Source: Fructobacillus americanaquae
GTDB lineage: Bacteria; Bacillota; Bacilli; Lactobacillales; Lactobacillaceae
Direction of reading: 5' to 3'
NCBI RefSeq assembly: GCF_024029775.1
Contig: NZ_CP097122.1
Coordinates: 124,001 to 188,000, forward strand
Length of the DNA stretch: 64,000 bases
Shown: piece after piece, positions 11,459-63,667 of the stretch
Layout: every line of letters starts with the position of its first letter
Position numbering within the stretch: the stretch's first letter is position 1
Translations under genes and position numbers: made by a program
The notes under the pieces: model-generated
What the model saw: only the letters and a program-made list of their open reading frames with translations
Database searches by the model: none
Told to the model about the DNA's origin: nothing

Positions 11459-12345
11459 CTAGATAAAAGAGCTATTATTTTGATCAGGTAGGTAGACTCC
11501 TTTCAACCCATCTTGATAACCAGCTTTAGCAGCGGCTAAGGTTTTAATGACTGTCGTATCACTTAATGAAGGGATCTCTTGTTCAGTACTCAAAAGTGTC
11601 AAAGCATTTTGAACTGCTTTAGATGCCCTAAATCCAGACATAAAGCTCAGATCATTTAACTGATCAGTCGAAAGCTGTTCTACTCCATTCGTTTCTCCAT
11701 ATTGGTAACCATCATGAGCATATTGATACCCATATTGACTCAAATCATTTTTAACTGATTCATACTTTTCCCATCAATAAAGGCTTGCCGATGAGTTGGC
11801 GAGCTTGCAGATAAGCTAGTTGATAAGATTGTTGATAAAAACTACTTTGATTGTGAATATCAATCTTTTTATTATTCACGTTCATAGCCCCATTAAAGCT
11901 AAGTTCTCCACCATTCTTGGCATCATCAGCAACCATTTGATAAACAGTCTGATATGCCTGACTATGTTGAGTTAAATTAGGAATCCCCATCGAATTTCGG
12001 TTCAAATTAACCGCATCCTTGGCATCCTGATAGGCATCTTTCCGATTTCTGTCAAGACCAGTATCTGACCCAATGACTTGGTTATCTGCGTCTTCTAACC
12101 CTTTCTTAACTTCTTCATAAGCGCGAAAACCACTCATAAAGTCTTGATCATTTTTTGTTCTTCTGTTAATTCTTTTTCGGATCTATTCATCGCAATATGA
12201 AATCCGTCTTTAGCCAATTCATAACCCAATTGACCAGCCCGATCTGAAATTGATGAACCCTTGAAAGCGGTTGTTCCCGTTAGGAAAGCCTGCGCTCCTA
12301 TACTTTAAAAGCATCTTGAGCCAGTTGGTAAGATTGAGCTAATCA
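11459..12345 (-). pseudogene. Internal fragment of a giant Tyr/Gln/Ala-repeat surface protein
   Basis: Three minus-strand frame segments read in order as a decayed paralog of the giant protein at 51122-61561. About 12345-12145 gives GAQAFLTGTTAFKGSSISDR; 12137-11760 gives FMSGFRAYEEVKKGLEDADN; 11743-11459 gives QYGYQYAHDGYQYGETNGVE. The same order of motifs occurs in the intact giant near 54.3-53.4 kb (GYEAAESGYQIA, FMLGFKAYKEVQKG, YQYGYQQAQAGYLAA). At least two frameshifts separate the segments, and both the 5' and 3' parts of the gene are gone. It lies just downstream of the 4.8-kresidue giant, mirroring the order of the two gene types near 62 kb. Confidence 0.8.
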
Positions 12346-12450
12346 CTTTCACTAATTTTTAAACATATCATTCAAACAATAATCAGATCGAGCTTTTCTA
12401 ATCAGTGCCTGATTAGTTGATAACAAATCCAATTCAATTAATTATTAAAC

Positions 12451-12481
12451 ATAAAAACCACGGGGATAAAATCTCCGTGGT
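12451..12481 (-). terminator. Terminator of the 4.8-kresidue giant gene
   Basis: CCACGGAGA..CCCCGTGG forms a stem followed by TTTTTA on the minus strand. A closely similar hairpin lies at 61954-61984 behind the paralogous gene remnant. Confidence 0.85.
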
Positions 12482-12492
12482 ACGCCTCTCAC

Positions 12493-15400
12493 TTATTTTA
12501 TTACCCGACGTTTTTCATTCATTAATTCAAACCAGAAAATAATTGATGAAAGTAAGAGAGGTAATTCAAAACTTGAATTGTTAGTACGCCCCGTTTCTGG
12601 CAAAACCAGAAAGCGTTGACGACTTAACCAAGAATGCCAGACTCGACTATCTTGATATAAAGTTTGCATTGTTTGCACAATGTTTTGCTGCTGTCTAATA
12701 ATTTCGTCTGCCGACTTACTTTCCTTAATCAAAGCATGCTGAGCTTGTAGCCAACGATCCATCCTGGTTAATATGGATTGTTTATCTTGTTCAGTCAGAT
12801 TTACATCAGCTTGAATTTCTCGACGAAGCAAAGACTCTTTATCTAAAATCCAGTGCCAACTTTGATGCTGTTGATCATTTAACGAACGACCGATTTGGTG
12901 AACATTATTAACCTTAATTTGAGCCGACTGAACAAAGTTCACTACATCTTGAGCTAAATTCAAATCAGATACTTTCTGTAGTTCATACTTCAAAAGAAAG
13001 TTTAACTCTTCAACCTGCCGATCTTTTTCCCCCTGATTCAAAGTGGAATCGTTATTAATTACTAATGTTTGGGATTGAACTAGGTCCAATAAGAGATTCT
13101 TAGCCGACTTAATCCGATCTGATAGCGATAGTATAGCCGACCGGTGCCCCTGCAAGATATCCGTTTTTAGAGTTGGCATTTCCTGAATATCACTCAACTC
13201 ATCAGCGTTTTTACAGTAAGCTATTTGATCAGCCGTTTTCGCTACTGCCTGACTCACCGAATTAACTTGTTGTTCCTTTTCCGCATCAGTCAGACTAGAA
13301 TCAGATTGGATATCAGCAATTACTTGATTGGATCGTTCAAAAATCAACTGTTCAGCCTCATTCTTTTGGTCCGAGAGAGCCAAAACATCTTGAAAATTGG
13401 TAGCGTCTCGGATTCCCTCTAACAGTATCAATGCGTTTTGAACATCCGTTACCCCGTCACTATTCAATGCCTGGTCAATTCCTTGATCTACTCTCTTTTG
13501 ATTTTGGATAATTAACTGAATTCGACTCTCCTTTTGGTTTTGACGAAGGTCAACACTCTTTTTCAAAAGCTTAATAGCTTTTTTAGCAAAATCACCTAGA
13601 ATATGTTTAATAATTTCTTTTTGCTGGGACAATGGAACCACATTTGAAAAATCTGTTTGTCGGTCTATTTCGTAGCTAAGTGTAAAATTAGTGGTAACTG
13701 AAGATAAAGAATCACTATTTTTAACCCAATTAACTCTAGATTCAGCGGTTATCAAAGCATTTTTCAAAATATTAACTCGTTCGCTTTTTTCAAATCGACT
13801 CAAATTAACATTTGCCTCAACTTTTCTAATTGCTTCATTTACTTGTTGTGCAAAGCTAGCTTGAACCACTTGCTTCTGTTGATCCAACGATATAATACCA
13901 GAAAAATCAGTCATCTCATTAACTATCGTTTGAAACTGTGATGTTTCCACCGCATGATTCAGGTCTTCACGATTTTTTGCATCAGATAATGACTGATCAT
14001 ATTGGCCTTGAGCTTGCCGAATAAGCCGAATCCGTCGATTTTTTTCATCACTTCGCAGGTTAACATTATTTTCAACCTGAGCTATCGCTTGATCAACCAA
14101 ACGACTAAGTTCAGCCTGATAACCACTCTGCACAATTTGGTAAGCAGTAATCTGACTGAAATCAGTTTGACTGCTGATTTCTGAAACAACTTTAGGTGTG
14201 ACTACTGCAAGCTGATCGTTTAAGTCGTCACTGTTATTAACTTTCTTAATCACATTTACAGCTGACTTTAAAGTAACATCAATTGCTTGGCACCTCTCAT
14301 CTCGCTGCTTTTCTGTTAAATCTGGATTTCGGTCTATTTGCTCTTTTGCAGCTTCAACTTGTTCACTTAGAGCACTAATAGCAGTCTGCTTTTGATCTGA
14401 TAAAGAAGGGACCTTACTAAAATCGGTTTGTGATTGAATCACAGCATCAAATTCAGTACTATGGCTAACCGCATTTACCTGATCACTATTACTAGACTGG
14501 ATTACGCTCTGTTGTGCATTCAACAAAGCTTGGTTAATCTTATTAATTCGATTTTGTTGATCATTTGTAGTCAAAGCTGAATTATTTTGGATATCTTGAC
14601 TTGCTTTTTTAACTATCTCAGCTAAACTATTTTTCACTTGATCTTGTTGATCAGTCAAACTAGGAATACCACTGAAATCAGTTTGCAGACTAAGGATTTG
14701 TTCGAGTGCTGGGTTAGCCGTCACCGCAATAACAGAATCACTATCCTTAGCAGCAGATAGCCGTTGATGGAACGCTTTTTGTGCTAACAAAATTGCTTGT
14801 TCTCGCTGCGTCTTATCTGCCTGTGTTAATTTATCCTCCTGATCAATCATTTGAAGAGCTGATGTAACTTGCTGGTCTATTGCTTGGCTAGAAATCAGCT
14901 TTTGATCGGCCAATGCTTTAACACCAGTGAAATCAGTGCCCATGCCAATCGCCTTCATCAAAATTGGATTACTAGTTGCTTGACTTACTTGATCACTATT
15001 TTTAGCAGTAGTAATCAAGCTATCCAAATTTTTCTGAGCCTGAATAATCATCTGTATTCGGCTATCCCGACTGGCCTGTTCTAGATCCACATTATTTTGA
15101 ATTATTTTAATTGCGTCCTGACTTCGAATATTAAATTCGTCTTTAGCATCCTTCTTTTGCTGATCAAGACTTAATATCCCGTTCAAACTCAGTACTCTAT
15201 CTAAGACAACTTTCATACGAGCATCTTCCGCAATTCTCGTTTTCTGCAAACCATCACTATCTGTAGCATTCGATAATTCTTGATTAATCTGATTTTGCAA
15301 ATTTCGCAAATCATCAATTCGCTGATTCTGATCCTCCTTTTTTAATGCCTCATAGGACACAATCTTATCAATTGCAATTTGAACCTGATCTGTAAACTTT

Positions 15401-18400
15401 TGCTGAACCAGAGTTCGCTGTTCCGACAGGGTTTTTACTTTGCTGATGTCAGTAGAAACTAATACTGCATTTAAGACAGCCTGCTTACTATTCGAACCGA
15501 TTAACAAAAGATCATCACGATTACTAGTTGTGGATATCTGAGATGTAACCCGATCCACTACTTTTTGCAACGTGGTCAATCGCTCATCCTTTTCCACACC
15601 ACCTATATTTACATAACCAATAATAACTTTTCGAGCCGAATCTGTTACTTTGTAAATTTGATCTAAATAATCCTTTTTCTGCTCATCCAAAGTGGGAATA
15701 GACGTTATATCCGTTTCAGATGTAATAGTTTTCTTTAAGGCATTTATATCAGCTTCCTGATGAGCCGATTCGCTATCTTGACTTGCTAACACTTTTGCTT
15801 TGAGTTTATCTGCTTGCTCTTGAATAACAGATAAACGAGCCGCCTGATCAGCTTGGGTAAGAACTACTGCATGAGAAAGATTCTGACTAGCTTCGTTAAC
15901 TAAATTTTGAATATCTTGATTTAATTTTACTTTCTGATCAGCTAGCGATAAAACATTAGAAAAATCAGTAGATGACTTTAAGTCAACTGCCATTTGGCTC
16001 TTTGCTTGGTCAAAAATATCATCTAGATCATCACTGTTTGCAGCTGTCTGAATTTGTGAGTGCGCTTTATTTTTTGCTTCTTGAACTAACTTTATCCGAC
16101 TATTCTTTTCGCTGCTCTGAAGATCGTGATTATCTTCAATTGTATTTACAGCAACTTGAACTAAATTAGATAACTGCTGAATATATGCTTGTTCTTGAAC
16201 ACTTAAAGAAGTAACTTGATCAAAATTAGTTTCTTCCTTAATAACCTCTGGCAAAGATATATCGTTCACACCTTGTTGCACCTGATCACTATTCATTGCA
16301 CTTTGAATCAAATCTTCAGCCTGTTTTTTTGCATTAATAATGAATCCAATTCGTGCGTCTTTTTCTCTCTGTTTCAAATCAACATTATTCTGAATCTTAT
16401 TCACCGCAACTTTAACTAATTGGTTAACACTATCAACTGCCATCTTCTTTTGAATAATTAACGACTGAATACCATCAAAATTTTGTTCTAATTGGATTAA
16501 AGAAGTTAACGTTTGATTTTCTTTAATAGTTTTTAATGCATCACTATCTTGAGCTCCTTGAAGTTTCTGAACTAATTCATCCAAGGACGTTTGAATTACC
16601 TGATTTCGCTGATTTTTCTGTTCTTTTGTTAAATTAACATTAGACAGAATAACTTTTGTAGCTGCCAAAACCATTTCTTTAAAATCGTGAATAACAGCTT
16701 CCTTTTGATGAGCCAAATCCGTTACTTGTTTAAAATCAGAAGCCACTTTTAAAGCTTGATTAAAGATTAAACTATCTTGTGCTGATTGAACATCACCTAA
16801 CGTTACAGCTTGATCAACAGACTTAATTGTTTGGTCAAGTGCTTGGTTAAATGCTTGTAACCGATCCGCTTTTTCATTTTGATTAAGATCAATATTTTGT
16901 CGAATTTTTTCAATAACCTGATCAGCCTGTAGATTCAAGACTCGACGAGCAATTCCCTTAACGACATGTAAATTGGTCAAAGTATTAATTGCATTTTGTT
17001 GAATTTGTAAAACTTCTTGAGCATCATGAGCATTGTTGATTAGGTCAATAGACGCTTTAGAAAACGAGTCAACTGCATTATTTTGGTCTGCCTTATTAGT
17101 TTCAGACAAAGCTTGATCAGTTGCAATACTATTATTTTTAGCACTTGATTGATTTACCTGAATTGCCTGAATTGCTTGATTTTTACGATCAGCTAAGGTA
17201 GTTATCCCTTGACCATTCGTTCCACTAGTAATGGCATTAGTTAAGGATTGTTCCTGCACAGCTGCACTAATGTCATCACTCGAATTAGCGAGATTAACAT
17301 TAGCGACTGCTCGATCCAATGCGGTATTAATTTTACCTATCCGAATGTCCTTTTCAGACTGAGTCATATCCACATTAGAGTTAATTTGATCAACAGCCAC
17401 TTGAGCAACTGCTTGCAAAGAAGCATTAGCTTTAATTCTTTGCTGTTCAAGTGTCAAAATATTAGTCAAATCTTTTTCTTTATTTATGATATTTAGTAAT
17501 GTCGGATCATCTTTAGCCGCCGTAATAGCATCACTATTAGCAGCTTTGCTAACAGCTAATCTTGCATTATTATAAACTTGAGTAATTGTTTCTACCCGTT
17601 CATTTTTTTGAACTTGACTTAACGATGGCTCGCGATTTATATCGCCGATTGCTTCAGTTACAACTTGATTTAACTGTTTGGAGACTAACTCTTTTTGTTG
17701 ACTTAGGGAGACCACACTAGAGAAATCAAGAGCTTTATTAATTTCCATTGTTAATTCGTCACTATTGGCCCGTTTATTTGCATCATCCAGGGTAGTCGAA
17801 CTATCGACATTCTGTTGGACAATTTGCAGTATCTGGTTAATCTCATCAACCCGATCACTTTGCTCTTGTTCCGTTAAGTCAACGTTACCCTTAATAATTG
17901 AAATGGCCTTTTGGGCTTGTCGATCTAGTGTATCCCGACTATTTTTTTTCTGTTGGCCAAGTGTATTAAAAGTTATTTGTGCAATTTTAAGTTGATCAAC
18001 TACTGTTTGTGCTTGTTTAGCATTTTTAAGATTATTCACAAACTGATTAGATGCTTGAATCAAAGCCTGTTCTTGTAAGTTCTGGCTAACTTTATTCAAA
18101 GTCTCATCGTGTTGCACTAGTTGTTGTGCTTGATTTACAAATTGACCTACAGCTACTACAGCTTCTGTAATCCGCTCTGGTAAGAGAGTAACATCAGCTA
18201 ATGAATAGGCAGCATTAATAGTTGTCTGTAACGCTACATCATTTTTTGCTGCCAAAACTCCATCACTGTTAGTAGCTTGTGTAATATTGACCTTCGCTCG
18301 GTCAAGAGCTACTAATAGGTGGTTTATCCGACCAATCTTATCTCCTTGAGTGAAGTTAACATTTTGGTCAACCCAATCAATTACGGTTTGAACTTGTTGA

Positions 18401-21400
18401 TCTAAATCATTTTGGGCTTCGTTAATTTGATCCGACAAATTTTGGACTCCTGAAAAGTCAATTGCAATAGAAAGAACTTTTTGGAATCCCATGCTTAGCA
18501 GGGCATCATTTACTTGATCACTATTAGTTGCCTGAATAATGGCTGACTTTATCTGGCCATATACCTTCGTAATAGAATCGATGCGGTTATTCTTTTGAGT
18601 TTGAGATAAGTTAATGTTTTCATTAATCTTTGTTAAAGCATCTGTTACCTGCTGGTTCAAATCTTTCGTCGCATCATTTTGCTGATCGCTCAAAGACTTC
18701 ACACCCGTAAAATCGGTTTGATGACTAATTACAGCCGACAATTTATCATTTTCCTGTACATGTGCTACTTGGTCCAAGTCAATTGCCTGATCAACTTGTT
18801 CCAAAGCGCGAGCAAGAGCCTCGTTAATTGCATTCATTCGGTTATTCTGTTCATTCGAAGAAAGATCAGAGTTAGTCTTAATCGTTTGATTAGCAATCTG
18901 AGCAAGATTTGTTAAAGACTGACGTGCATTTTGTTTCGTAGATGAAAGACCGGCCAAAATTGCTATTTCACGATTTTCCGTGTCAACAACTTCTTGAGCA
19001 TTTTGAGCTGCTTGAACAGCTGTTTGAGCAGTAACTGTAGCTTCGACAACTGATTGCTTTTGTTGATTCTTTGAACTTTCTGACAAGGTTTCATCATTGT
19101 CAACAGCTGCTTGAGCAACTTCTTGAGCTTTCTCAATCGCTTTTGCAGCAACCAATTTACGCTGCTCAACAGACAAAATAGCCGGATTAGTAGCCATAGT
19201 CAATGCAGTCTGCAAGTCTTGACTCGATAAAACAGTAGTTAGGTCATCATTGTTATTAGCCGAATTAATCGCTGCCAATGCGGTATTCTGAGCCGAAGTT
19301 AACTGATTAAAACGAGCCAATTTTTCATCATTAGTCAAATCTAGATTATTATCAACTTTATCAATCGCAGCGTGAATCTTATCGTTGATTATAGTGACAT
19401 ATTGACTTTTCTGATCAGCCAATGATGTAATACCATCTTGGCTCAATCCTCGAGTAACGGCTCTGACCAATCCGTTATCTTCTTCAGCTCTGGCTACAGC
19501 ATCACTGTCTGTAGCATTTTCAATCCGCTGCTTGACCTGTTCTAGGGATAAAGTCATGTCATTAATCCGAGTCTGCTGTTCCTTACTAGACAAACTGACA
19601 TATCCCTCAATTTGGCTAATAGCATTTTTGACCCATTGGCTTAATTTATTTTCGGCAGCAACTTTTTGTTGATCTAATGGCGTGACTGTCTTAAAGTTTG
19701 TATTGTCCTCTATCGTTTGGATCAATGTTGAATCGTTAATAACAGCTACTACCGCATCACTGTTAAGAGCTAGTTGAATTTGTTGATCAACCGCTTGCTG
19801 CGCCGCAATGATTTTGTTTTTTCGATTATCTTTTTCAGAACGACTAAGATCATGATTATCCTCAATCATTCCTAAAGCTGAAACTACTTGGCCATCGATA
19901 GTTCTTTGTCCATCAATCTTTTGCTTAGCCAGTGGTACTACCTGGGAAAAATCGGTAGCTTGCTTATATGAATCATAATAAACCTTGGATTGACTAGCTA
20001 TTTTAACCGCATCACTATTAGTAGATTGGTCTATTAAAGCATCTAATTGACTTAGTGCCTGAGACAACACGGTCACTCTACTTTGTTGAGCATCCTTGGT
20101 TAAATCAGTATTTCCCAAAATCTGACCAATTGCTTGATCAACGTCTTGCTTGAAGCTCTTCTTAGCATCCTCTTTTTGGGTAGATAGTGATTTAATCGAT
20201 TGAAAATTTGTCTGTGCGTTAAGATTAGTCAAAAAATCAGCATTATCGGCTACGACACTTTTAATAGTGGTTAGATCAGTGGCTTGATCAATCACCGCGT
20301 TCGCTTTCATCAATGCCATTTGAATGGAACCGATACGGACTGCTTGCTCAACTCCTGATAAGTCCACATTATTTTGAATCGTCTGAATGGCTGACTGACT
20401 TTTCTGATAAATAGCTTCCCTAATAACCTTTTTCTGATTATTAACTTGACTAATTTTGTTCAAAGCAGCGCTAAGATCATTCACAACCATTTGAGCCGTG
20501 GAATCATTAGTAATTTGATCAGTAAAGACCTTTGCAATATTTTGTAGAGCTGTTTTTTGATCTTGTTTACTAGTAGTATCTAAATCGGCATTTGGCTCAA
20601 TATCTTGCTGAAAAAGAGAATTGACCAAGTCATTAATTTGTTGAACAGCTTTGATCTGACGATCTGATAAAGATTGAACCCCATCATTACCCTGAGCAGT
20701 CGCTAAAATATTAGAAAAAGTTTTATCTGCTTGAGCCGAGCTAACTCCGTCACTATTAATAGCCTGATCAATATTCGTGTCAGCACGGTCTAAGGCTGCA
20801 ACTACCCTAGCCATGCGTATATTTTGGTCCAATTGAGTCAAGTTAACGTTTTTCAAAATGTTAGCAATCGTCTCTTTGGCTAGCTTACTTAAACTATTTT
20901 GAGCTTGGGTCTTTTGTCCAGCTAAGGGAATTACCCCGTCAAAACTCGTAACCGTATTAATCACCTCTAACAAGTTAGAGGTAGATTGAGCATTAATAAT
21001 GCTATCACTGTTAGTAGCCGCATTAACCAGATTCTTTACTTGAGTATAAGCTGCGACGATTTGAGCAATACGATTCGTCTTATCATTTTGTGATAAATCA
21101 ACATTATCATTAATTATCTTAACGGCATCGGAAACCTTTTTATTCAACTCAATAGTCGCTGATCTTTGTTGGTCAGCCAAGGTAACAACACCTTGAAAAT
21201 CTGTTGCCTGATTCAAGGCTTTTTGATAATCCGAATCACTTGGGGCAACAATTATAGCGGCCACATCTGTCTCTTTATCAATCCTAGTATTCAAGCGCCC
21301 TAAAGCTTGATTAATCATATCAATTCGGCTAGCTTTCTCTTGCCTATTCAAATTCACATTATTGTTTATTTGATTTTCAGCTTGATTAGCAGCATCAGCT

Positions 21401-26931: not shown

Positions 26932-26984
26932 TTTCATACCTCAGCCTTCAAAAACCAATCAATTTAATTTCTCTAATAGTAATT

Positions 26985-30724: not shown

Positions 30725-31137
30725 CAATATTATCTTTTGAAATAATCTTTATTATATTCTTTTATTATTCATAATCGTTTTTAATAAGCCACAGTTTCAT
30801 TATAATCCTGTTTTGATCTCGCAATCATTACATCTAAAAATTGTTAGAGCCTTCATTTTAACAACTGAAAAAGGGCTGTAAATTCAATGTTATTCCTTAA
30901 ACCAGCTAGCTTTTTCGTAGAACCTGATTCAATGAACTAACCATACAGGGCTAATTTTATTTTAATCTTTCGTCTCTCTTCCCATTTTTAATCTAACGTT
31001 CCAATAGTCAAGTTATATCAAACATTTTAAAAATAATTACATGAAAAGAGAGTTACAAAATTATTCAAAATTAAAAAATAGATTATTTATGTTAGTAACA
31101 GAATGACCTCAGTTCATCCTATCACTTTGAATACGCT
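30725..31137. other. Intergenic region between the Ig-like adhesin and the CPBP remnant
   Basis: No gene is supported here. The last 30 bases before 31138 still resemble the region around the stop codon of the intact CPBP paralog. The rest is AT-rich with no clear element. Confidence 0.5.
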
Positions 31138-38224: not shown

Positions 38225-38262
38225 AAGGCTAGTACCCATCATTGCTGATAAACACTAGCCCG
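38225..38262 (-). terminator. Terminator-like hairpin in the leader of the M20 remnant
   Basis: GGGCTAGT and ACTAGCC pair across a 20-base loop and are followed by TTTTTC on the minus strand, just upstream of the M20 remnant start. It could be the terminator arm of a leader control element; the aptamer part is not recognisable. Confidence 0.5.
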
Positions 38263-54100: not shown

Positions 54101-57100
54101 TACTAGACCTTTTTGAACTTCTTTATATGCTTTAAAACCAAGCATGAAGTTCTTATCGGTCTTTTGCTCATCTGTTAATTGATTTTCAGTGAGTGTTGAA
54201 GCAATCTGATAACCACTTTCCGCTGCCTCATATCCCAACTGTCTCGCGTTGTCTGAAATCGACAAAATAGTGAAAGGAGGCTTTCCATCTAAGAAAGCTA
54301 TCGCCCCATTAGTTTTCAAGTCTTGAAAAGTGCTCTGAGCTTTTCTGTATGCTTGAATTTTTATCCAAGACCAACCTTGTTGATGATCAGGCGTTACCTT
54401 TTTATCAGAAAAACTATCATTAAAGCCTTCTTGAGCACCAACAAAAGAATCTTGGCTAATAGGGTCATTATTAGGAGCTACATCAATTCGATCTAGAGCA
54501 GCCTGATAACCTTGTTGATAAGTTTTAGCAGCTATGATACCAATATTTTGGCCTCGATTAGGATTCAATAATAAATCTTGACCGGGCACAATTTTAGAAT
54601 TAATTCCTTGCCAAAAATCTTTAAAGCCTTGGCTTTCAGCCGGAGTGCTTTTAGGATCATCACTTAGATTTTGCGCCAATTGAACGCCTTGATCATATTC
54701 CTTTTGATACCGGTCAACGGCAATAAAGTAAACGTAGCGGTCAATCGATGATGATGACGCACTTTGATCACTAATGTCTGGATTGGATTCAAAAAGTTTT
54801 TTTACTCGATCTATAGAAGATTGAACTGCAGTTTGAACTGTTTCTGGAATGCTTGCCACAGGTGGATTCTCGTTATTTAAGACCGAATCAGCATACTCCT
54901 TAACCAGCCTACCAAGGTTCATACCATCAAGTTGTATGGCAGTAGGATTAGTTATGCTAGTCCCAATAAGTATGGAATCAAATCCAACCTTTGCTTGATC
55001 CATTGCTACTTGAGCGAGTTTTTGAACATTAGGATTAGCACTCACAGTTGTTACTGTATCTGATAAAGGATTTTTTTGGAACTGCAAGAGACCATTTTCT
55101 TGAGCTGCAAGACCATCCTTCATTCCCTTTTGGTAAGCTTCATTATTAATTGGATTATTAGCCACCGTCTGAGAATCAGACAATCCTTTGCCGCCATTAA
55201 CCGCATCAAGTCCAGATTGATAAGCAGCTTGTGCCAATTGATAAGAACTCGTATCAGCGACCACATTAGGCTGTACGTGACCGGCTTGGCTATCAATTAT
55301 CGCTTGATATACAGATAAACCAGCTTGATAACCATTTTGATAAGAACCTTGATAAGTACTGTTAGCCGGTTGTTGACTGACACCTCCTTTGATTCCTTGT
55401 TCAAAACCACTCTGCGCTTGGTGAATGGCTAGATTAATGATTGTAGCCGCAGGACTAGTTTCTTGAATGACTTGATCTCCTGTAAGATAGCTTTGAACCC
55501 CAGCATTTACTAGAACGGCAGCAGCTTGCTTGGCTAAGAAATAACTATTTTTATAAATTTGACTACTTACAACGTCATTGTCTGGAACAATAGCCATATT
55601 CTCATCATTATTTGGATCTTTTAACTCCAATAACGCCTGTTTTTTAGCGTCTTGCATTGCTTGCTGATCGGCCGGCGATGTTGGAACGTTAGAATTGGAA
55701 GCGACATTGAGAGCATCTAAACTGGACTGTGCTGCTTGATAGCCAGTTAGCTGATCATTGCTACTTGGAACAACTACCACTGCATTGGGGTTTTGCACCT
55801 GAGATAGTTTTAATTTCATTCCTAAGGCAACTTGCTGATAAGCATGATCATAGATAAGTTGAGCAGCAGCGCTTGAAAGCTTACTATGATCTGCAACATT
55901 ACCAGTTAAGACAGCATTAGTCGCTTGATTATTCGCAGCATTAGCCTGATCAACTGCAAGATTATAAGCAGCAACATAAGCTCCATTGTGAATTTCATCA
56001 ACACCAATATGAGATTTCGTTCCATATTGATATACCGCAATAATAGCAGCTGCAGCACCATTATAAGTATCCGAGTCTTGGCTATTCACTTTTGGAAGCT
56101 GTTCTGACCAAGCTCGCTGATAGTCAGACTGGACTTTTAGACCAGCATTAAACCCAGTAAGGTAACTTTTATCTTGAGAGCTCGGCTCAGCTTTTACTCC
56201 ACCATTTAAAGCATCATCAAACCCGTTCTGAGCATTAGTAAAAACTTGTGAACTGGCCAAAGACTGGGCACTATTCTTCAAGAATGGGTTCCCGGCGCGA
56301 TTTGTTACAGAATTAAGAATACTAGGAATCAGATTCAAATTTGTTGCTGAATTCACCGCCTGCAGATAAGCGTCTTGATACGCACGACTTCGATGCGATA
56401 CATCTTGCGAGCCACCACGATTAAAGACATCGTTATAACCATCTTTAGTCCCTAAAAGTGCATCTTGAGCAGTTGGGTCACTCATTGTTACCGTTGCGTC
56501 ATTATTGGCCTGGTCAATTCCAGTAGCTTCATTTTCTTTTAACTCAAGACCTTGGAGGTAACCATTGGAACTTACATTTCCAGTTTGAGCATTGCCGCGA
56601 TAACCATCATTCACATCTTTAATTCCTGCCTGAGTAAAGAAATCTTCTCCCATTGCTTGTGGATTAGTCAAGGATTGGAGAACCCCATTATTATAATTAC
56701 TAATACCTCCCTTCCCTAAAGTAGATAAAATAATCTGATTCATTGGTTTATCAGAAATAAGATAACCAATTCCCTCAACTTGAGCAACAGTTGCGTTAAA
56801 GGCATCATTAGTAGCGCTTGTCAGATCTGGAATCCCCTGAACAGGAAGTACTTGTTGACCACTTAGCATAGCCGATTTCCAAACCACTAAAACATCATTC
56901 GCAGCCTTTTTTCCACTGTCATATGCAGACTTTTGATCAGCAGCATAATTGCTAGTATCAGTTTTATTTCCCGACAAGATATCCACGAAGCCTTGCTGAG
57001 TAGCATAATAATTTTTAAGAATATTTTGATTTTCTTCCGAATTACCTGAAGGTGCCGGTTCATTGTTCAAAAATAACTTAGCTCCATCTGGAACTATTTC

Positions 57101-60100
57101 GTTTGATTCCTGATTATTATCATTATTTGAACTATTGTTATTATTTTGATTACTATTTGATGTTTTTTCGTCTAAATTAGCTGAACTGGCATAGCTCTTC
57201 TGATAAGCATCCTGATAAAGTGGACTTCCATTCTTATCCCTGTGCTGATCATTTTTAGCCTGTCCATCCTTGTAACCATCAACTGCTCCATGATATCCAG
57301 CTAAGTAAGCACTCTTTAACTGATCAGTAACGTTATTTGGGATAGTCGGTTGGTCACTCACCAGACCATGTTTTTGAGCCTCAATTAAACCTGTATTATA
57401 ACCATTTTCGTAAGACGCTATGGCATCAGCATATCCTTGTCCAAAAGCAGCTAAACCTGTTTGAGAGGCCGCTGCGACCCCTGAGGTGGCTTTAGATCCC
57501 GTCAACTGATTGACTGCATTAATTCCTTCTTGTTTAGCAACTGGAATAATTACTTGATTGTAACCTACTTTTTCCAATGTGTTTAACAGTGTATCAGTCT
57601 TACCTTGTAATCCGGCATAGGCACCAAATTTCAAATATTGATAAACAGTCGCATTGATAGATTTATCTGAATTCAGTTGTGACGGATCCAACAATTGTGC
57701 CTCAATACTATCAATCCCATTTGTTCTAGCCGATGCAACTGCATCCTGGGCTAATTGCCAACCGATTTGTGCTGCTTCCAGGTTCTTCAAATGATAGCTA
57801 GTATCAACTGTAACAGGTTTATTTTGACTAAGGGCCCCATTAATCATTGATTGGACATAATCGAAAGCATCTTGTTCAACTTTGTTAGCATTCATATCCG
57901 GGTTAACTGCATAGCGGTCAACCATTAAAGCGTTTTGAAAACCAATTTTAGCATCATTATAAACCGCTTGTTGTTCTTTAGTAAGAGTATTGAACTGTCC
58001 ACTGCTAATTTTCCCACTCTGAATATCACTAAAAAAAGCAACTAAAGCTTGAGCATCCGATATACCTTGGTAAGCCGCTGTATTGGCAATTGGCACATCC
58101 GGAGTAGAATTCGAATTTGTACTTGGATATTTAGATTGTATTTGACTTGTGTTCTTACCTTGATTAACAGAAAGCTGTGTCTCCTGGTAAGCTTTCTTGT
58201 AATAATCTTGAGCTTCTTGATATTTCTGACTTTTATCCGCTACTACATTAGTTACATTAAATCGAGCATCTTGAACCCCAGTTTGATAAGCTGCTTCATT
58301 AAAACCAAGTACGAAGGCCTCCGGATTAGAGGAACTATAATAAGCAGGTATGGTTGTTGGATCTTTATCAGGGTTAGCCTTATAGGCTGAAAATCCAGAC
58401 TGAACACTGGCATAGGCAGCTAAGTAGTCAGCATTTGCTTTTTGATTAAAGGACTGCTGATCTCGACTGGCCGAAGAACCTGTAATACTATCAACAATCG
58501 CATCTTTTAACCCTGTTGAAATGTCTGCCAGAGATCCTGTGGCCACTTGCATATCTCCGCCATTAACCACTTCCAAAACTTTTCCATTTTGTCCCTGTTG
58601 ATACCCTTCCACTGTCGTGTAGTATTTATCTGGAGTTAATATAGAGTTAACCGCACTAACTCCATAATGGAGTCGCATACCAATATATGCTGGATTTTGT
58701 CCTTTGGCCAATTTAAAGGTAATTGGAATAATTCCCCCTTTATAATCAGCAGGAGTTGCTATTTGGCTTACATAGGTATTCGGATCTGCAATTGAATCCT
58801 TATTTACAATAGTCGACCCTGAAACTTGAGTTAAGTTGTTATAATTGCCTTGTGGATCAGTGTTACTAGTGGCAATTCCAACATAAATGGGTTCGGGATT
58901 GTTATCCAACTCTTGATAATTTGCCAGTCGAGCATATCCCGTTATTGTTGCCGTCCCATCAGCATCAATAGTTTTAGAAAGATTCCCTATAAATGAAACA
59001 GATGGCACGTCAAAAATTTCTAGGGTATTTCCAGAAATTGTTCCAGAAATCTGATTTCCTTGTAAATCAATCCCAGTATACTGGTTCGATCCTGAAGCTA
59101 AGGAAAAATTGTATAGATATCGCTTACGATTACCATCATAAACTGCAACTGTATACGCGTTGATGTTCCCAGCAGTTCCAGAACCAGCTAATCCCTGTCC
59201 AGACGAAGTTGTTTGAAATTGTGAAACCGTTGGCGTTTTAATAAAAATAGCATGGTTAGAACCAATCGTGTTGATGCTAATCGGACCATAATAGGGAACA
59301 ATATAGCTAGTATCGGAGTTAGTTACACCAACCTTTAAGTTACCGCGCGCGCCTACATTAAAAATTCCTTGGCCGACATTGTTAATCAGGGCATTCCAAG
59401 TAGCTTGATGACCATTACGGGTGTAGGAGTATACTCCTTGACCATCTGGAACTTGATCCATCATGACCTGCATCAGGCCACCATTGGTTACACTAATTTG
59501 AGTTCCCGAACCACCTTGCAAATCAATTGGTTGATTATAGTAACCAGCTAATCCACCTTGCGCTTCATAATTTAGCGTTCCACCATTAATATTAATTTGA
59601 ATAGCATAGGCCTTGTAAACAGCACCACCAAAAATATACTTATCTCCTTGAAAATTATCAGGAATAATATTTAAAGTAGCGTTTTTATTAATGTTCAATG
59701 AAGAACCAGTATTTCGAAGCCAAACTCCCCAAGTACTACTATCAACAGTAAATTCAGAATTTGAAAACCCTCGAGGGATTAGCGTCATTTTGGCATTTTC
59801 GCCAATAGTGAAATTCCCTTGAACCACAACATTAATGCCACCCCTTACTGGAGAAGCGTTTCCAAAAAAGTGAGCATTAGTTTCCAAGATAAAATTATTA
59901 ACTTCCAAATTTTGTTGGTTTCCACCGCCCTCCATATAAACCTTAGTTTGAAAAGGTGACGTATAAGTTGCGTCACTAGATGTAGGTGTTACAACATTAA
60001 TATTGCCAGAAGCATAACTATCATTATTATAAGAACTTAAAAGTTGAGGACCAACATAATTTAGATTGCTAAAATGTAAGGACGCTCCTGCCTCAGCGCG

Positions 60101-61561
60101 GAATGGGCCAAAATAATTAGATCCATAAAGAGTCTGAAAATTTTGAACATATAAATCCAAAGCACCTGGGCCAAGACGATTAACCGTATAATTATTTCCG
60201 TGAAAGTCCATCATGTGATGTTGGCCATCTACAGTTAAGACTGACATATTAGTATAAATAGTCCCATCATTTTCGCCATTGGTTGCACCGGTTAAATCAA
60301 TATCATTAACTAATTTAACTGTATTAATATTACCGGCCACATAGCCACCAACTGTGTAAGTCTGGATTTGTCCAGTCATGATCGATGACCACTGCTGCCC
60401 ATTAGCAACATAAACAACACCATTAGAAGCTTGAGTGACGATGTCATTGAACCCTTGGTCATAATAAAAATTACCAGTATCTGACTGAGCAACCGCTGTA
60501 TTTCCATTATAGATGTTATTAGTAAAATACCGGTTCATTGCACTTTTGGCACCACGATAAGCCTGATCATAAGGACTAGTAACTTTCGCCGTGTTACTAC
60601 TAAGGTAAAAGTCTTTGGTTTGCCCGTTACTCCCATGGTAAACCCCTTGCCATTTACCAGTTTCTGCATCTCGTTGTCCTAATTGTCCTAAAGTATAATT
60701 AACCGCCGATTCAAAAGCTTTTTGCAAACCTGATCCAACCAAACCATTGCGGTAACTAGCAATAATAGAATCCGTTGCTGTTGGAATTGTAATGGTTTGA
60801 TTGTAATCACTAACCTTAATTGAAGTATTATTACTGGAATTAAAAAGATTGACCAGCGTATTTTCATATTTTTTAACACTGGCCTTAGCTTCTTTCGGAG
60901 TATCAGCCCCACCTTGATTCACATCATCAGATGTCCCATAATTCTGAGGGGTTCCATCCGTTAGCACCGAATTAAAATGCGTCGAATTATCCCCTTGCAC
61001 ATTAGAAACTTGAGTTCCTTGTTCGCTAGCTTTATCAGCATCTGAATTAGGCTGAGCACTTCCATTTATCCCAGTTTGAGCATCTTTATTATCATTAGAA
61101 AATCCATCGGCCTTTTTAGCAGTATTTCCATAAAAATAATAGTCTTGATTACCAGCGCCCTGGCCTTGGGTTGCACTGTTATAAGCCTGTAAAGTTTTTT
61201 GAGCCCCAGCATAAGCAACGTTATAATAATCTGCCCCTCGTCCACTCAAAGTTTGTGATTGATTAGACTTACCTTGATAGCCGTCTAAGTATCCCTGTTG
61301 GATTTGGTCCGAGTAATTATTAGCATCCGCAACTGTATAAGAGTTTCCACCTGTCGGAGGCGTGAGAACATCCGTTCCACTAACACTTTCAGCCTGATTC
61401 CCAACCTGGTTTGTATCGGCACTAACTTGAGACACTTGACTCAAACCGATGGCACCTGCTAGTGATAAGGTAGCCACTGAAACGACTACCCACTGGCTAT
61501 TCACTCTACGAAGTATCTTTTTATCATTTATTTTTTGGTGTGTTCTCTTATTATATAACAT
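51122..61561 (-). CDS. Giant surface protein: pectate-lyase-like head and Tyr/Gln/Ala repeats, no LPxTG
   Basis: The start is set at ATG 61561 (CAGGAG ten bases upstream), giving about 3,479 residues; the frame extends to 61600 without a good site. The signal is the variant type KKILRRVNSQWVVVSVATLS, cleavage near VSAD. Residues about 380-790 resemble the pectate-lyase-like adhesive beta-helix of Gram-positive adhesins (VKLVNDIDLTG, SLHFSNLNYVG, SLNINKNATLNI). A beta domain follows to about 1,040. From about 1,080 to 3,350 run irregular helical repeats with G-Y-Q-x-A and F-x-x-G-F-x-A-Y-x-x-A-Q-x-G motifs, with an Asn-rich linker near 1,467-1,490. The C-terminus is QFILASTIVGFITMLSYLVK followed by RKQDS: a membrane helix and basic tail without LPxTG. 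It may stay in the membrane or have lost its sortase site. Confidence 0.9.
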   Translation of the reverse strand: MLYNKRTHQKINDKKILRRVNSQWVVVSVATLSLAGAIGLSQVSQVSADTNQVGNQAESVSGTDVLTPPTGGNSYTVADANNYSDQIQQGYLDGYQGKSNQSQTLSGRGADYYNVAYAGAQKTLQAYNSATQGQGAGNQDYYFYGNTAKKADGFSNDNKDAQTGINGSAQPNSDADKASEQGTQVSNVQGDNSTHFNSVLTDGTPQNYGTSDDVNQGGADTPKEAKASVKKYENTLVNLFNSSNNTSIKVSDYNQTITIPTATDSIIASYRNGLVGSGLQKAFESAVNYTLGQLGQRDAETGKWQGVYHGSNGQTKDFYLSSNTAKVTSPYDQAYRGAKSAMNRYFTNNIYNGNTAVAQSDTGNFYYDQGFNDIVTQASNGVVYVANGQQWSSIMTGQIQTYTVGGYVAGNINTVKLVNDIDLTGATNGENDGTIYTNMSVLTVDGQHHMMDFHGNNYTVNRLGPGALDLYVQNFQTLYGSNYFGPFRAEAGASLHFSNLNYVGPQLLSSYNNDSYASGNINVVTPTSSDATYTSPFQTKVYMEGGGNQQNLEVNNFILETNAHFFGNASPVRGGINVVVQGNFTIGENAKMTLIPRGFSNSEFTVDSSTWGVWLRNTGSSLNINKNATLNIIPDNFQGDKYIFGGAVYKAYAIQININGGTLNYEAQGGLAGYYNQPIDLQGGSGTQISVTNGGLMQVMMDQVPDGQGVYSYTRNGHQATWNALINNVGQGIFNVGARGNLKVGVTNSDTSYIVPYYGPISINTIGSNHAIFIKTPTVSQFQTTSSGQGLAGSGTAGNINAYTVAVYDGNRKRYLYNFSLASGSNQYTGIDLQGNQISGTISGNTLEIFDVPSVSFIGNLSKTIDADGTATITGYARLANYQELDNNPEPIYVGIATSNTDPQGNYNNLTQVSGSTIVNKDSIADPNTYVSQIATPADYKGGIIPITFKLAKGQNPAYIGMRLHYGVSAVNSILTPDKYYTTVEGYQQGQNGKVLEVVNGGDMQVATGSLADISTGLKDAIVDSITGSSASRDQQSFNQKANADYLAAYASVQSGFSAYKANPDKDPTTIPAYYSSSNPEAFVLGFNEAAYQTGVQDARFNVTNVVADKSQKYQEAQDYYKKAYQETQLSVNQGKNTSQIQSKYPSTNSNSTPDVPIANTAAYQGISDAQALVAFFSDIQSGKISSGQFNTLTKEQQAVYNDAKIGFQNALMVDRYAVNPDMNANKVEQDAFDYVQSMINGALSQNKPVTVDTSYHLKNLEAAQIGWQLAQDAVASARTNGIDSIEAQLLDPSQLNSDKSINATVYQYLKFGAYAGLQGKTDTLLNTLEKVGYNQVIIPVAKQEGINAVNQLTGSKATSGVAAASQTGLAAFGQGYADAIASYENGYNTGLIEAQKHGLVSDQPTIPNNVTDQLKSAYLAGYHGAVDGYKDGQAKNDQHRDKNGSPLYQDAYQKSYASSANLDEKTSNSNQNNNNSSNNDNNQESNEIVPDGAKLFLNNEPAPSGNSEENQNILKNYYATQQGFVDILSGNKTDTSNYAADQKSAYDSGKKAANDVLVVWKSAMLSGQQVLPVQGIPDLTSATNDAFNATVAQVEGIGYLISDKPMNQIILSTLGKGGISNYNNGVLQSLTNPQAMGEDFFTQAGIKDVNDGYRGNAQTGNVSSNGYLQGLELKENEATGIDQANNDATVTMSDPTAQDALLGTKDGYNDVFNRGGSQDVSHRSRAYQDAYLQAVNSATNLNLIPSILNSVTNRAGNPFLKNSAQSLASSQVFTNAQNGFDDALNGGVKAEPSSQDKSYLTGFNAGLKVQSDYQRAWSEQLPKVNSQDSDTYNGAAAAIIAVYQYGTKSHIGVDEIHNGAYVAAYNLAVDQANAANNQATNAVLTGNVADHSKLSSAAAQLIYDHAYQQVALGMKLKLSQVQNPNAVVVVPSSNDQLTGYQAAQSSLDALNVASNSNVPTSPADQQAMQDAKKQALLELKDPNNDENMAIVPDNDVVSSQIYKNSYFLAKQAAAVLVNAGVQSYLTGDQVIQETSPAATIINLAIHQAQSGFEQGIKGGVSQQPANSTYQGSYQNGYQAGLSVYQAIIDSQAGHVQPNVVADTSSYQLAQAAYQSGLDAVNGGKGLSDSQTVANNPINNEAYQKGMKDGLAAQENGLLQFQKNPLSDTVTTVSANPNVQKLAQVAMDQAKVGFDSILIGTSITNPTAIQLDGMNLGRLVKEYADSVLNNENPPVASIPETVQTAVQSSIDRVKKLFESNPDISDQSASSSSIDRYVYFIAVDRYQKEYDQGVQLAQNLSDDPKSTPAESQGFKDFWQGINSKIVPGQDLLLNPNRGQNIGIIAAKTYQQGYQAALDRIDVAPNNDPISQDSFVGAQEGFNDSFSDKKVTPDHQQGWSWIKIQAYRKAQSTFQDLKTNGAIAFLDGKPPFTILSISDNARQLGYEAAESGYQIASTLTENQLTDEQKTDKNFMLGFKAYKEVQKGLVAASTQVDRPDVSADKNQRDAYQAAQDAILDGQNPLSSTDLSRYSQAYQTAYRAVTHDAQDGSRIGLSDSKKPDTLKTDIRKESAFYQQAYQTAYLQARQAIDKGIQAFITGQDQEPVSNDLYQYGYQQAQAGYLAAISSSMKPLTQTELATPSFMFGFQVGQATLQAIEDQEKSENHSLNEVNQIAYNQAIQAFSQGVADVNKGGNSKTLADNPVNDLAYQAGKQSANKVKQAALEQLLNNPLSDNVMDISPNSQLQALANQIMSDGKKAFLSGFQGESIAETSPEVEASLEIGRKARLYVQSILEDSYVGDQQLPIAIKNQIKEILLEAKQDFQKNPKTTDQSTFDHTFDQLVYDQAILNYQKAYLTGVRSMESQENPITPSWAFDQGRMDYLNGLKSIVVPKSSSISQANFGQQAGIDAADIFKKAYQSALDQEASPHVNDIFSEQVFAGAQTGFQNGLSHQIKGEVALNQLTDPEKLAYQLAVQEVQDSRIAGAQDYIQGKRNSNGFGILNQAMNNGYQVSQNGYKWKIDYPGQELTSDQKEDNAFMIGYQAYEDAQSGQNLAITLANLPVNSSTSLSDAYYGIRDGYKIDETEVAEPDLTGKSPAYQDAYLIGKQSGKIAYSAGSQAFLKGYQPPHQSDLNSQVSLAGYQKTQLGFNDGVAGQKADQSQGKYYLGYQSGQAAREALLSKTEETVVDQNSYNSAQQGYQDALKEILVNPDQEPTVIIGNAAYQYGFHQGWMRLYRAYQKGLEQFSQGGQSSDISDILGTDDQKMVFKAMSDSLSGFQKGLTLGLDFNLDNEAPRTGYDLAKSVLEGIARVQKGQDPATNWSVLDQAIQSAKHAVSVNPLGNWTLPTVFQDNLLASITFWHAIFVFQSNYHGVSRSSFQSQEFFANLNYNTAISAILNDSLGRKNSLQLNQGSYLNRHSQNQHAVSQWEGAKNSYFDRKLTNLSLADNIVIDYRDQFILASTIVGFITMLSYLVKRKQDS

Positions 61562-61668
61562 ACATATATTTCTCCTGAAGAAATAGGGTAAGGTGTTCAA
61601 CCCCGTCCGGGCTTATGAAGTTATTTAACATCATTTTACAAATAAAACAAAATAAGCTTTTGTATGTT

Positions 61669-61953: not shown

Positions 61954-61984
61954 AAAAAAACCATGGAGACTTAATCTCCATGGT
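61954..61984 (-). terminator. Terminator behind the giant-gene remnant
   Basis: CCATGGAGA..TCTCCATGG forms a perfect stem followed by a T-run on the minus strand. It is similar in sequence and position to the hairpin at 12451-12481. Confidence 0.85.
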
Positions 61985-61997
61985 TTCCTCCTTCATT

Positions 61998-62400
61998 TCA
62001 TAATCGGCGTTTTTTATTAGCCAATGGAAATAAGAAAATAATTAACGAACTGAAAAAGGGATGTCCATCTTAGCTCAGCAGTACGTCCTGTATCCGGTAA
62101 GGAAATAAAACGTTGACGGCTTAACCAAGTATGCCAGAATCGATTATCTTGATACAAGTTTTGCATTTGTTGAATAGCATACTGCTGCTGTCTAACAATC
62201 TCATCTGCCGTATTACCATGATTCATCGCAGCATAATGGTTTTGTAACCAACGATCAATTCCAGTTAAAATAAATTGCTTATCTTGATCTGTTAAATTTA
62301 CATTATACTGAATTTCCCGACGGATCATAGACGCTTTTTCTAGAATTAACTGCCTGCTTTGATCCCGTTGATCAGTTACAGAACGCCCCACATGGTGCAC
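61998..62400 (-). pseudogene. C-terminal fragment of a giant three-helix-repeat surface protein
   Basis: The fragment aligns with the last 125 or so residues of the giant at 12493-26931: HHVGRSVTDQRDQSRQLILE, then IRREIQYNVNLTDQDKQFIL, ADEIVRQQQ, FWHTWLSRQRFISLPDTGRT. After LPDTGRTAE the frame is wrong (it stops at 62017), while another frame continues HPFFSSLIIFLFPLANKKRRL to a stop near 61998, which is the missing hydrophobic anchor and basic tail. So there is one frameshift at the anchor and complete loss of the signal peptide and repeats. No ribosome binding site precedes the ATG at 62400, and nothing suggests expression. Confidence 0.85.
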
Positions 62401-62781
62401 ATCTTTGTATTAAATAACGTTTTCTTCATAATGCACCCATTATATTTTAAACATACATATCACTTTTTTAAATTGAGTCAATACTCTCAAACTAAATACA
62501 TTACGGGTGGATCGTACACAATATTTTATACTAGCCTATATTTAGTGACACCATGTATTAGAACACAGAATTGCAAAAAATATTTTTTAATATTTTATCT
62601 AGATTCTCTATTTAATATTATAAATCCAGTTTAACTTATCACCCATTTAATACATTACATCGTCAAAAATATTTTGACCATCTTAATTGAATTGATTGCT
62701 GATATGGTAACATTATAATAAGTGTTTACATACATTATTCATAATCTAAATAACTTGTTGTATTAAAAATAACCCATAAAT
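62401..62781. other. AT-rich intergenic region
   Basis: No coding signal was recognised here; the expected upstream part of the giant-gene remnant is absent. A plus-strand ORF at 62359-62634 overlaps the remnant and has no family sign or ribosome binding site. Confidence 0.45.
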
Positions 62782-62810
62782 TAAAAAACTTTCCAAATTA
62801 AGGAAAGTTT
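62782..62810 (-). terminator. Terminator of the CPBP protease gene
   Basis: AAACTTTCC and GGAAAGTTT pair across a 7-base loop, followed by a T-run on the minus strand. Confidence 0.8.
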
Positions 62811-62890
62811 CTTTACAAGCTAATCATTATAACTTAGTAACTGAATACTCATAAAATTGTCAACTTCATTCTAAAACCGAAAAAATGGCA

Positions 62891-63667
62891 TCAGTTCTTT
62901 CTATCAGTTTGAATCCGTTGCACCAAGGCTGGAGCATGTTTTCGTGGCCAAAAAACATAAATAATTAATCCTATTTTGAGATAATTTAGTACCATCAAAG
63001 CCATAGATTCAAAGCGGCCATCTTGAATTTGAGACATGTCATTAGCTGTTCGCATGTAATCGGTTGCAAAATGCAAAGCAATCGGATACCAAAGGCTTCC
63101 AGTCTGAACATATAAAGCACTGTATGCAAGACCACCAAAAAAAGATAAAACAATCTGAACTAGAACATACTGCAAAGATGCATGAGACAAATTAGTAAGA
63201 TGTAACAATGCAAAAATTAAGTTAGAAATAGCCACAGCTTCCATCAACTTGCGATAAGAGTATCCATTACGCGATGTATAGTCGAGAAATCTTCCTAACA
63301 AAACACCCCGTGTTAAGAACTCTTCAGAAAATCCCCCCATCACACCAGTGGCCAAACTGATAATTAGATCAGGTGTTTTAAAGAATGGCAAAGCCATTGC
63401 AATTATCAAAAGCCAAAATGCATAGTCCCATATAGTAAATGATCTATGCATATAAAAAGATTGTTTAGTAATCCAATGATTTAAAAGAATCACCACAAAT
63501 AATTCACTTATTTTAAACAAAAAATTCGCTTCAAATTGAGTTAAATTAAAGTGATAATATAAAGCATTCAGAGCTTGATAAACACCTAATTGAGTAATTA
63601 ATAATTCCAGTACTAAAAATAATGCAACTGGAATAATCAAACCAGTTAAAGTATTTTTCCGTGTCAT
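62891..63667 (-). CDS. CPBP-family intramembrane metalloprotease
   Basis: This integral membrane protein of about 258 residues has several hydrophobic helices and the three CPBP (Abi/CAAX-like) motifs in order: EExxxR within GFSEEFLTRGVLLG, FxxxH within FALLHL, and the late HFATD. These form the metal-binding active site of the family, which includes bacteriocin-immunity and surface-processing proteases. I place the start at the third in-frame Met (63667, MTRKNTLTG), eight bases after AAAGGA; two upstream ATGs (63676, 63673) overlap that site. A promoter and terminator bracket the gene, so it is monocistronic. It stands upstream of a giant-gene remnant; a decayed paralog holds the same kind of position near 31 kb. 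The substrate is unknown. Confidence 0.9.
   Translation of the reverse strand: MTRKNTLTGLIIPVALFLVLELLITQLGVYQALNALYYHFNLTQFEANFLFKISELFVVILLNHWITKQSFYMHRSFTIWDYAFWLLIIAMALPFFKTPDLIISLATGVMGGFSEEFLTRGVLLGRFLDYTSRNGYSYRKLMEAVAISNLIFALLHLTNLSHASLQYVLVQIVLSFFGGLAYSALYVQTGSLWYPIALHFATDYMRTANDMSQIQDGRFESMALMVLNYLKIGLIIYVFWPRKHAPALVQRIQTDRKN

Follow-up and report, generated by a model that had tools for sequence, protein, structure and literature searches.

The locus and its genes

In Fructobacillus americanaquae, whose genus is known from flowers and bees, the chromosome has two neighbouring blocks of genes, here called A and B, each of which holds one intact and one fragmentary gene for a giant protein. 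Both lie in or reach beyond the window, i.e., the whole stretch of 64,000 nucleotides that was analysed (positions 124,001 to 188,000 of contig NZ_CP097122.1, or G000:C1:124001-188000, in a single-contig genome of 1,414,204 bases); coordinates given as window-extended continue its numbering rightward past 64,000. The two blocks are direct, collinear, long-diverged copies of one locus. The repeated unit comprises a GNAT acetyltransferase, a protein that we take to be an M20 amidohydrolase, a CPBP protease and two giants, and the two GNAT genes are about 28 kb apart. G1 stands for the DUF1542 giant of block A, G2 for the Tyr/Gln/Ala giant of block B and G3 for a third giant between the blocks. 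The features of the region are as follows.

11459..12311, minus strand: G2-type remnant of block A, an internal part in more than one frame with no start or C-terminus recognised
12451..12481, minus strand: hairpin of the G1 terminator, block A (folding energy of 12440-12495, -15.2 kcal/mol)
12493..26937, minus strand: G1, KxYKxGKxW/DUF1542 giant of 4814 aa, block A (PF07564, E 3.4e-94; PF19258, E 5.1e-13; LPETG)
28019..30658, minus strand: Ig-like (Big_3) LPFTG adhesin (PF07523, E 7.8e-29), without a block B counterpart (no A-B match)
31102..31657, minus strand: decayed CPBP (Rce1-like) protease, block A (86.5% and 82.7% identical to 62884-63619)
31685..32632 (element from about 31661), minus strand: transposase in two open reading frames adjoining the CPBP remnant, presumably IS30-like
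32786..35107, minus strand: MucBP/Muc_B2 adhesin with LPETG, located in block A between its GNAT-M20 part and its CPBP-G1 part (PF17966, E 4e-27; PF06458, E 6.1e-10)
35515..36573, minus strand: YdcF-like (DUF218) gene (PF02698, E 7.3e-24), within a stretch 99.1% identical in F. tropaeoli F214-1
36881..38545, minus strand: decayed M20 amidohydrolase, block A (77% identical to window-extended 65024-66722)
38727..38966, minus strand: remnant of ABC-transporter genes, block A (82% identical to 9494-9736 of the EFB-N1 locus, L077)
39080..39592, minus strand: intact GNAT acetyltransferase, block A (PF13508, E 6.2e-9)
39877..50577, minus strand: G3, DUF1542 giant of 3566 aa between the blocks and outside the A/B homology (PF07564, E 5.7e-168; LPQTG)
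51122..61600, minus strand: G2, giant of 3492 aa, block B, with a predicted N-terminal beta-solenoid of the serine-rich repeat protein (SRRP) type and Tyr/Gln/Ala repeats (from homologues and Foldseek)
61954..61990, minus strand: hairpin of the terminator that follows the G1 fragment, block B (sequence match to the block A hairpin)
62017..62402, minus strand: C-terminal G1-type remnant, block B, with LPDTG followed by a frameshift (61% protein and 71% DNA identity to G1)
62891..63676, minus strand: intact CPBP (Rce1-like) intramembrane protease, block B (PF02517, E 3e-19)

A first-pass annotation of this DNA had recognised in block A the CPBP remnant, the Ig-like adhesin, G1 and the fragment of G2, all of which stand, and made no mention of G3, GNAT or M20. 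The duplicated region is thus larger than described there, as it also includes GNAT and M20. To the right of the window, SBP, M20 and GNAT genes occupy window-extended 64.4-67.5 kb, and the GNAT gene at 39080-39592 and the decayed M20 gene at 36.9-38.5 kb match them in the same order. The decayed GNAT copy of block B lies there, at G000:C1:190950-191459. The Ig-like and MucBP adhesins, YdcF, G3 and SBP are present in one block only.

Homology of the two blocks

Comparison of block A with block B by blastn yields four collinear matches above 100 bits. Two of them cover pieces of the CPBP gene (31102-31412 against 62884-63195, 86.5% identical; 31405-31657 against 63365-63619, 82.7%), one the 3' end of G1 with its terminator (12447-12905 against 61950-62402, 71.0%) and one the G2 fragment (11706-12178 against 53703-54187, 66.7%, E 9e-26); in another blastn comparison the last match extends over 53703-54320 of block B with E 1e-57. 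The four score 370, 260, 216 and 112 bits, while the best of 50 shuffles of block A, made in blocks of three bases, scores 37 bits.

The giant fragments are specific to their counterparts. The G1 fragment of block B matches the C-terminus of G1 (E 2.6e-42, 61% identity across 108 aa) and has no further match below E 1e-6 in 124 kb of the same chromosome and 12 further loci. In the same set of sequences, the G2 fragment of block A is placed by tblastn at a single site in G2 (E 3.9e-34, 47% identity across 124 aa), followed by the next repeat at E 1e-8 and the best other species at E 2.5e-10. Similarity of generic repeats as the source of the A-B matches is ruled out by the shuffles together with these block-specific matches. 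Both blocks also have their terminators, the seven-pair core stems of which differ, by eye, by one paired change from C-G to T-A. The shared gene order, the collinear protein matches and the matching terminators put forward in the first-pass annotation are thereby borne out at both DNA and protein level, beyond the repeats, as is its view that each fragment is a remnant of the giant retained by the other block. In block B the homology to G1 starts abruptly at 62402, upstream of which only weak matches to block A are found (E 0.18 or worse), and the rest of its G1-type giant has therefore been removed.

Reciprocal decay

Exactly one intact copy survives in four of the five families, namely GNAT and G1 in block A and CPBP and G2 in block B, whereas M20 is broken in both. 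In block A, the CPBP gene has two frameshifts, one stop and an internal deletion of about 170 bases, and its 5' end is gone beside the insertion sequence (IS) that we take to be IS30-like, stretches of which are 96-100% identical in Fructobacillus sp. EFB-N1. The M20 gene of this block has accumulated six frameshifts and five stops in 1.16 kb of aligned sequence; its GNAT gene has neither kind of lesion. In block B, GNAT carries three frameshifts and one stop, while M20 and SBP carry one frameshift each and no stop. The CPBP protein of block B is 100% identical to its F214-1 counterpart.

The ABC-transporter genes, which in EFB-N1 stand between GNAT and M20, are lost from both copies. The deletion ends differ, so decay was at least partly independent in each copy. 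A shared ABC deletion was considered as proof that A and B are sisters and is not decisive: the ends differ, yet the main deletion of A lies within that of B.

The lesion load of the three decayed copies (M20-B and SBP-B excluded) amounts to 18 in 2.22 kb, about 8 per kb. Frames of 14.4 and 10.5 kb, if unconstrained for equally long, would be expected to carry about 117 and 85 lesions, respectively, and G1 and G2 look maintained by selection because they are open in spite of this. Their open frames suggest that both have been retained by selection. If genes were lost at random, one copy per pair, the two giants would end up on opposite blocks with a probability of 0.5, and the four families would split two and two with a probability of 0.375.

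The giant proteins

The DUF1542 repeats of G1 and G3 score 309 and 546 bits, respectively, against a Pfam cut-off of 24.3, and both proteins combine a KxYKxGKxW signal (PF19258) with a sorting motif, LPETG in G1 and LPQTG in G3. G3 directly follows G2 but is itself a DUF1542 protein. Its ends are 73% (N-terminus) and 82% (C-terminus) identical to those of an F214-1 giant beside two genes that we take to be purB and purA, as against 62.5% and 70% for the giant that F. americanaquae itself has at that place (G000:C1:213760-220623). That G3 is nearer to the giant of another species than to one of its own genome suggests further lateral exchange.

Ala, Gln, Ser, Asn, Gly and Tyr abound in G2, which matches no Pfam family above the cut-off. 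The first-pass annotation had called it intact, and this is correct for the open reading frame at 51122-61600; however, an LPxTG motif is absent in all three frames at the 3' end, and intact here denotes an open frame only. Its homologues in EFB-N1 and F. pseudoficulneus have LPATG and LPETR, respectively. An AlphaFold2 model of 681 residues near the N-terminus, computed from a three-row alignment, is mostly beta with a mean pLDDT of 60. Among the 422 PDB matches listed by Foldseek at E<=10, only two reach E<=0.001: 5ny0 (E 6.6e-5) and 5nxk (E 2.9e-4), both solenoid binding regions of Lactobacillus reuteri SRRPs. A sequence search of the PDB with the solenoid alignment returned nothing at E 0.01. 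The model supports, with moderate confidence, an SRRP-type beta-solenoid as the predicted fold of this region. As regards accessory-Sec export of KxYKxGKxW proteins, an Asp1-like protein is matched in all 13 genomes of the comparison set described below (E 2.3e-37 in F. americanaquae), none above the TIGR03713 cut-off, and also in one of 14 control genomes. G1 and G2 are probably surface adhesins.

Distribution of the giants in the genus

The comparison set consists of 13 Fructobacillus genomes, that of F. americanaquae and 12 others. The relatives used most are F. tropaeoli F214-1 (NZ_DF968078.1, a draft assembly of about 100 contigs), EFB-N1 and F. pseudoficulneus. In the 12 other genomes, the C-terminus of G1 finds nothing better than E 3.8e-5 at 24% identity, and for its N-terminal region no match of more than 100 aa exceeds 41%; in the F214-1 draft neither end of G1 is found at orthologue level.

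The N-terminal region of G2 is present in single copy in four of the 13 genomes (F. americanaquae, F214-1, EFB-N1 and F. pseudoficulneus) and has no match in the other nine. The homologues of the three relatives are 52-58% identical over the solenoid, and the distant copy of F214-1 contains an in-frame stop in the draft. They adjoin what we take to be a TetR-ABC gene pair, in F214-1 and F. pseudoficulneus near presumed fhs and purine genes. Since the corresponding place in F. americanaquae gives no match to any of 17 query pieces at E 1e-3, these homologues were not used as orthologues of the block genes. Six other species have a CPBP gene after the same TetR-ABC pair. In another Fructobacillus (G010:C20:55001-75000, L057), a CPBP gene at 14401-15204 of the locus lies directly upstream of a giant frame below 14179 with a KxYKxGKxW-like start, an arrangement reminiscent of CPBP and giant in the present blocks. 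On these results, neither giant is universal.

Exchange with F. tropaeoli F214-1

Outside special tracts, the DNA of the window is about 82-92% identical to that of F214-1 (88% across one stretch of 2.1 kb). Identity rises to 98-100% between 62375 and approximately window-extended 68.5 kb and is 99.1% over 37367 to 35460. The right-hand tract ends sharply within the GT gene. Before approximately nucleotide 1000 of this gene, F214-1 is 92-98% identical to EFB-N1 in four of five 200-base bins, the remaining bin standing at 84%, and its identity to the window is 80-90%; beyond this point, F214-1 is 98-100% identical to the window and 84-89% to EFB-N1. This breakpoint indicates that F214-1 acquired the tract by import, the donor being the lineage of the window or one closely related to it. 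Transfer in the opposite direction was rejected for the 62.4-68.5 kb tract, because in its GT part F214-1 and the window are equally distant from EFB-N1; a third, window-like donor may have been involved.

F214-1 joins window position 62375 to 37367 via a 7-bp overlap, six of the seven bases of which are alike, by eye, in both parents. Because the G1 fragment and the M20 gene of block A run through the junction in the window, the 25.0 kb in between have been deleted in F214-1. The reverse polarity, with F214-1 as the ancestral state and a 25-kb insertion in the window, fails since M20-A and the G1 fragment are homologous to the other copies on both sides of the junction. The deletion removed G2, G3 and the block A GNAT; G1 lies outside the deleted part. 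Further left, a single 29-base match to F214-1 was found in window 1-20000 (40 of 57 candidates scored), and nine in 20001-39999 (23 of 40 candidates scored), one of which, of 83 bases, lies at the signal-peptide end of G1; none of these nine falls in the Ig-like or MucBP genes.

A second near-identical stretch of 15.7 kb (98.1-99.5%) occupies window-extended 72.2-87.8 kb (G000:C1:196185-211833 against F214-1 G001:C1:29908-45559). Together, the near-identical tracts form a patchwork of recent exchange that spans about 52 kb, against a background of about 85-88%.

Origin of the two copies

EFB-N1 has a single locus with the order GT-GNAT-ABC-M20-SBP and open frames. F. pseudoficulneus has GT-GNAT-ABC without the corresponding M20, its best M20 match elsewhere being 37% identical. 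At the DNA level, the two copies of F. americanaquae are 81.0% (GNAT) and 79.4% (M20) identical to each other; copy A is 87.1% and 83.7%, and copy B 82.8% and 86.2%, identical to EFB-N1. In the GNAT tree, copy A joins EFB-N1 with support of 100/99, and the approximately unbiased (AU) test rejects a clade of A and B for GNAT (p 0.0065), for GNAT with its flanks (p 0.0056) and for GNAT and M20 concatenated (p 0.011). These trees and identities indicate that A and B probably separated before A parted from EFB-N1.

A number of observations pull the other way. For M20 alone the A+B clade is not rejected (AU p 0.158, support 80/83), and a long branch leads to the decayed copy A. The AU p values are optimistic, because the A+B test was picked after the identities were known. 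The CPBP copies are 85.6% identical, closer than the GNAT and M20 pairs (79-81%), and the CPBP-G1-G2 part is unplaceable by a tree as no close CPBP is available from another species: six such sequences that were aligned are at most 58% identical, and the best protein from another species reaches 55%. GNAT itself has seemingly been exchanged laterally, F. pseudoficulneus and EFB-N1 being 85.4% identical in GNAT and 59.8% in the neighbouring GT genes, and its tree therefore need not track the block. In addition, the comparison includes one genome per species, and the species of the window is represented by a single strain. Lateral exchange around the locus thus makes import plausible, but it weakens any single-gene tree.

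We propose that the two direct tandem copies go back to one chromosomal locus containing GNAT, the ABC genes, M20, CPBP, G1 and G2, and that they parted no later than the split from the EFB-N1/F. tropaeoli side. Either a duplication preceded that split or, as we prefer, the version of a related species recombined in beside the resident one. Since each twofold gene left one copy free to decay, genes may have been lost roughly at random from either block, through deletions and with an IS element beside one remnant, and the Ig-like, MucBP and G3 genes would have been inserted. G2 probably acts as a binder that carries a solenoid head on a long stalk of repeats, and G1 as a DUF1542 rod, with selection keeping both open. 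Part of the stretch then passed to F214-1, with the lineage of the window or one closely related to it as the donor, and F214-1 subsequently lost 25 kb, G2 and G3 among them. In its general form, i.e., tandem and long-diverged copies, fractionation to one copy per gene and a stretch mobile between species, this account is likely to be right. Its more specific form, a fossil merodiploid in which the locus of a related species was integrated beside the resident one, each with its own giants, and the decaying part was later passed to F. tropaeoli, is put forward tentatively, as its chances fall somewhat short of even. As to a plasmid route, a 2-kb megablast query (35400-37400) gave no match, and tblastn with the G2 solenoid retrieved four plasmid records, the best at 36.8%.

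The first-pass annotation had argued for an old segmental duplication. Its collinear homologous copies are confirmed, but a simple duplication within the lineage, followed by neutral loss and with the tree distorted by faster change in the decayed copies, is unlikely. The direct tandem order, the failure of the M20 tree to reject A+B and the faster evolution expected of decayed copies would fit it; the AU tests on flanked GNAT and on the concatenation speak against it, as does the divergence between A and B (19.0% in GNAT and 20.6% in M20), which exceeds that between A and EFB-N1 (12.9 and 16.3%) or B and EFB-N1 (17.2 and 13.8%). Still less credit can be given to the idea that fragments of this kind serve as silent cassettes, donating sequence to the full-length giants by gene conversion. 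They share homology with coding stretches of the intact giants, but protein identity is only 61% and 47% with no near-identical tract between fragment and giant, there is a single fragment of each, and the frames are disrupted, all of which makes such a role very improbable. That no true duplication took place, the likeness being due to generic repeats or to separately arrived fragments, draws on the repetitive nature of both giants and is the least credible of all. It is already contradicted by five genes in the same order and by 71-87% DNA identity in GNAT, M20, CPBP and, together with its terminator, the end of G1, compared with no more than 37 bits in shuffles.

The same annotation correctly saw that each block retained the giant lost from the other, with G1 open in A and G2 open in B, and concluded that the cell needs one of each and that the two loci have partitioned them. 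Just one giant of the two kinds is indeed open in each block, and unconstrained DNA would be expected to stay open over much shorter stretches than either frame. However, F214-1 has deleted the G2 of the block and its draft shows no G1 end at orthologue level, nine of the 13 genomes lack a match to the N-terminus of G2, and G2 has no LPxTG motif. Moreover, GNAT and CPBP, which are not adhesins, show the same pattern of one copy each. Reciprocal survival arises by chance half the time and is therefore no proof that both giants are needed. A selected partition is accordingly improbable, if less so than silent cassettes; G1 and G2 may be useful, yet a need for both is not supported.

Relation to known systems

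Fractionation after duplication denotes reciprocal gene loss, and the locus resembles it in that one copy per family is retained, from either block, in four of five families. It differs in that the copies may be xenologues rather than paralogues. DUF1542 cell-wall proteins are compared as Ebh-type rods; G1 and G3 resemble them in their numerous DUF1542 repeats, their LPxTG anchor and their KxYKxGKxW signal, and the N-terminal region of G1 is distinct in lacking a close match in the 12 other genomes. G2 shares with the L. reuteri SRRPs the predicted fold of its N-terminal region, without a recognisable serine-rich stalk.

A recent study (Pedersen et al. 2026, PMC12863079) deals with Giant1-3, which are surface proteins with a beta-solenoid in Apilactobacillus kunkeei and its relatives. 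It reports a single homologue of 3,500 aa in F. americanaquae and others in F. fructosus and F. pseudoficulneus, infers that solenoids are exchanged between species, and gives recombination tracts of more than 25 kb in A. kunkeei. G2 resembles these proteins in being very large and extracellular, with an SRRP-like N-terminal solenoid and a long repeat part; judging from the predicted fold, it belongs with moderate confidence to the solenoid giants of fructophilic bacteria. Giant1-3-like proteins measure 3,000-8,000 aa, have a long stalk of helical repeats and are encoded in clusters of consecutive giant genes; G2 is 3492 aa long, and the giant gene next to it is that of G3. G2 differs in lying within a GNAT-M20-CPBP unit that exists in two decayed copies, and the part of the study at hand contains no account of this unit, of G1 or of reciprocal loss. 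A literature search likewise returned no paper that joins DUF1542 with Fructobacillus and, among the entries listed, no description of this locus.

The kinds of genes and the processes are already known, and an origin from merged versions is plausible, not proven. Two versions of the locus have truly been decaying towards a single working set, in a region mobile between species, and the decay looks like ordinary gene turnover rather than a required division of labour. The locus illustrates, step by step, the turnover of giant surface-protein genes in fructophiles, from paired versions through one-copy loss to recent transfer and deletion, and it cautions that the reciprocal survival of two giants should not count as proof that both are needed. 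If the merodiploid origin is true, repertoires of giant adhesins in Fructobacillus would also be assembled by side-by-side merging between species and one-copy loss, beyond duplication and divergence alone.

Features at the left edge

Left of block A, window 6166-8670 contains a 550-aa frame with a KxYKxGKxW signal and an Adhesin_P1_N domain. The 245-aa frame after it has antigen I/II C-terminal domains, and the two are probably pieces of one broken adhesin of the antigen I/II type. A second transposase with broken frames, which we also assume to be IS30-like, lies at 8974-10040, at the left edge of the adhesin region.

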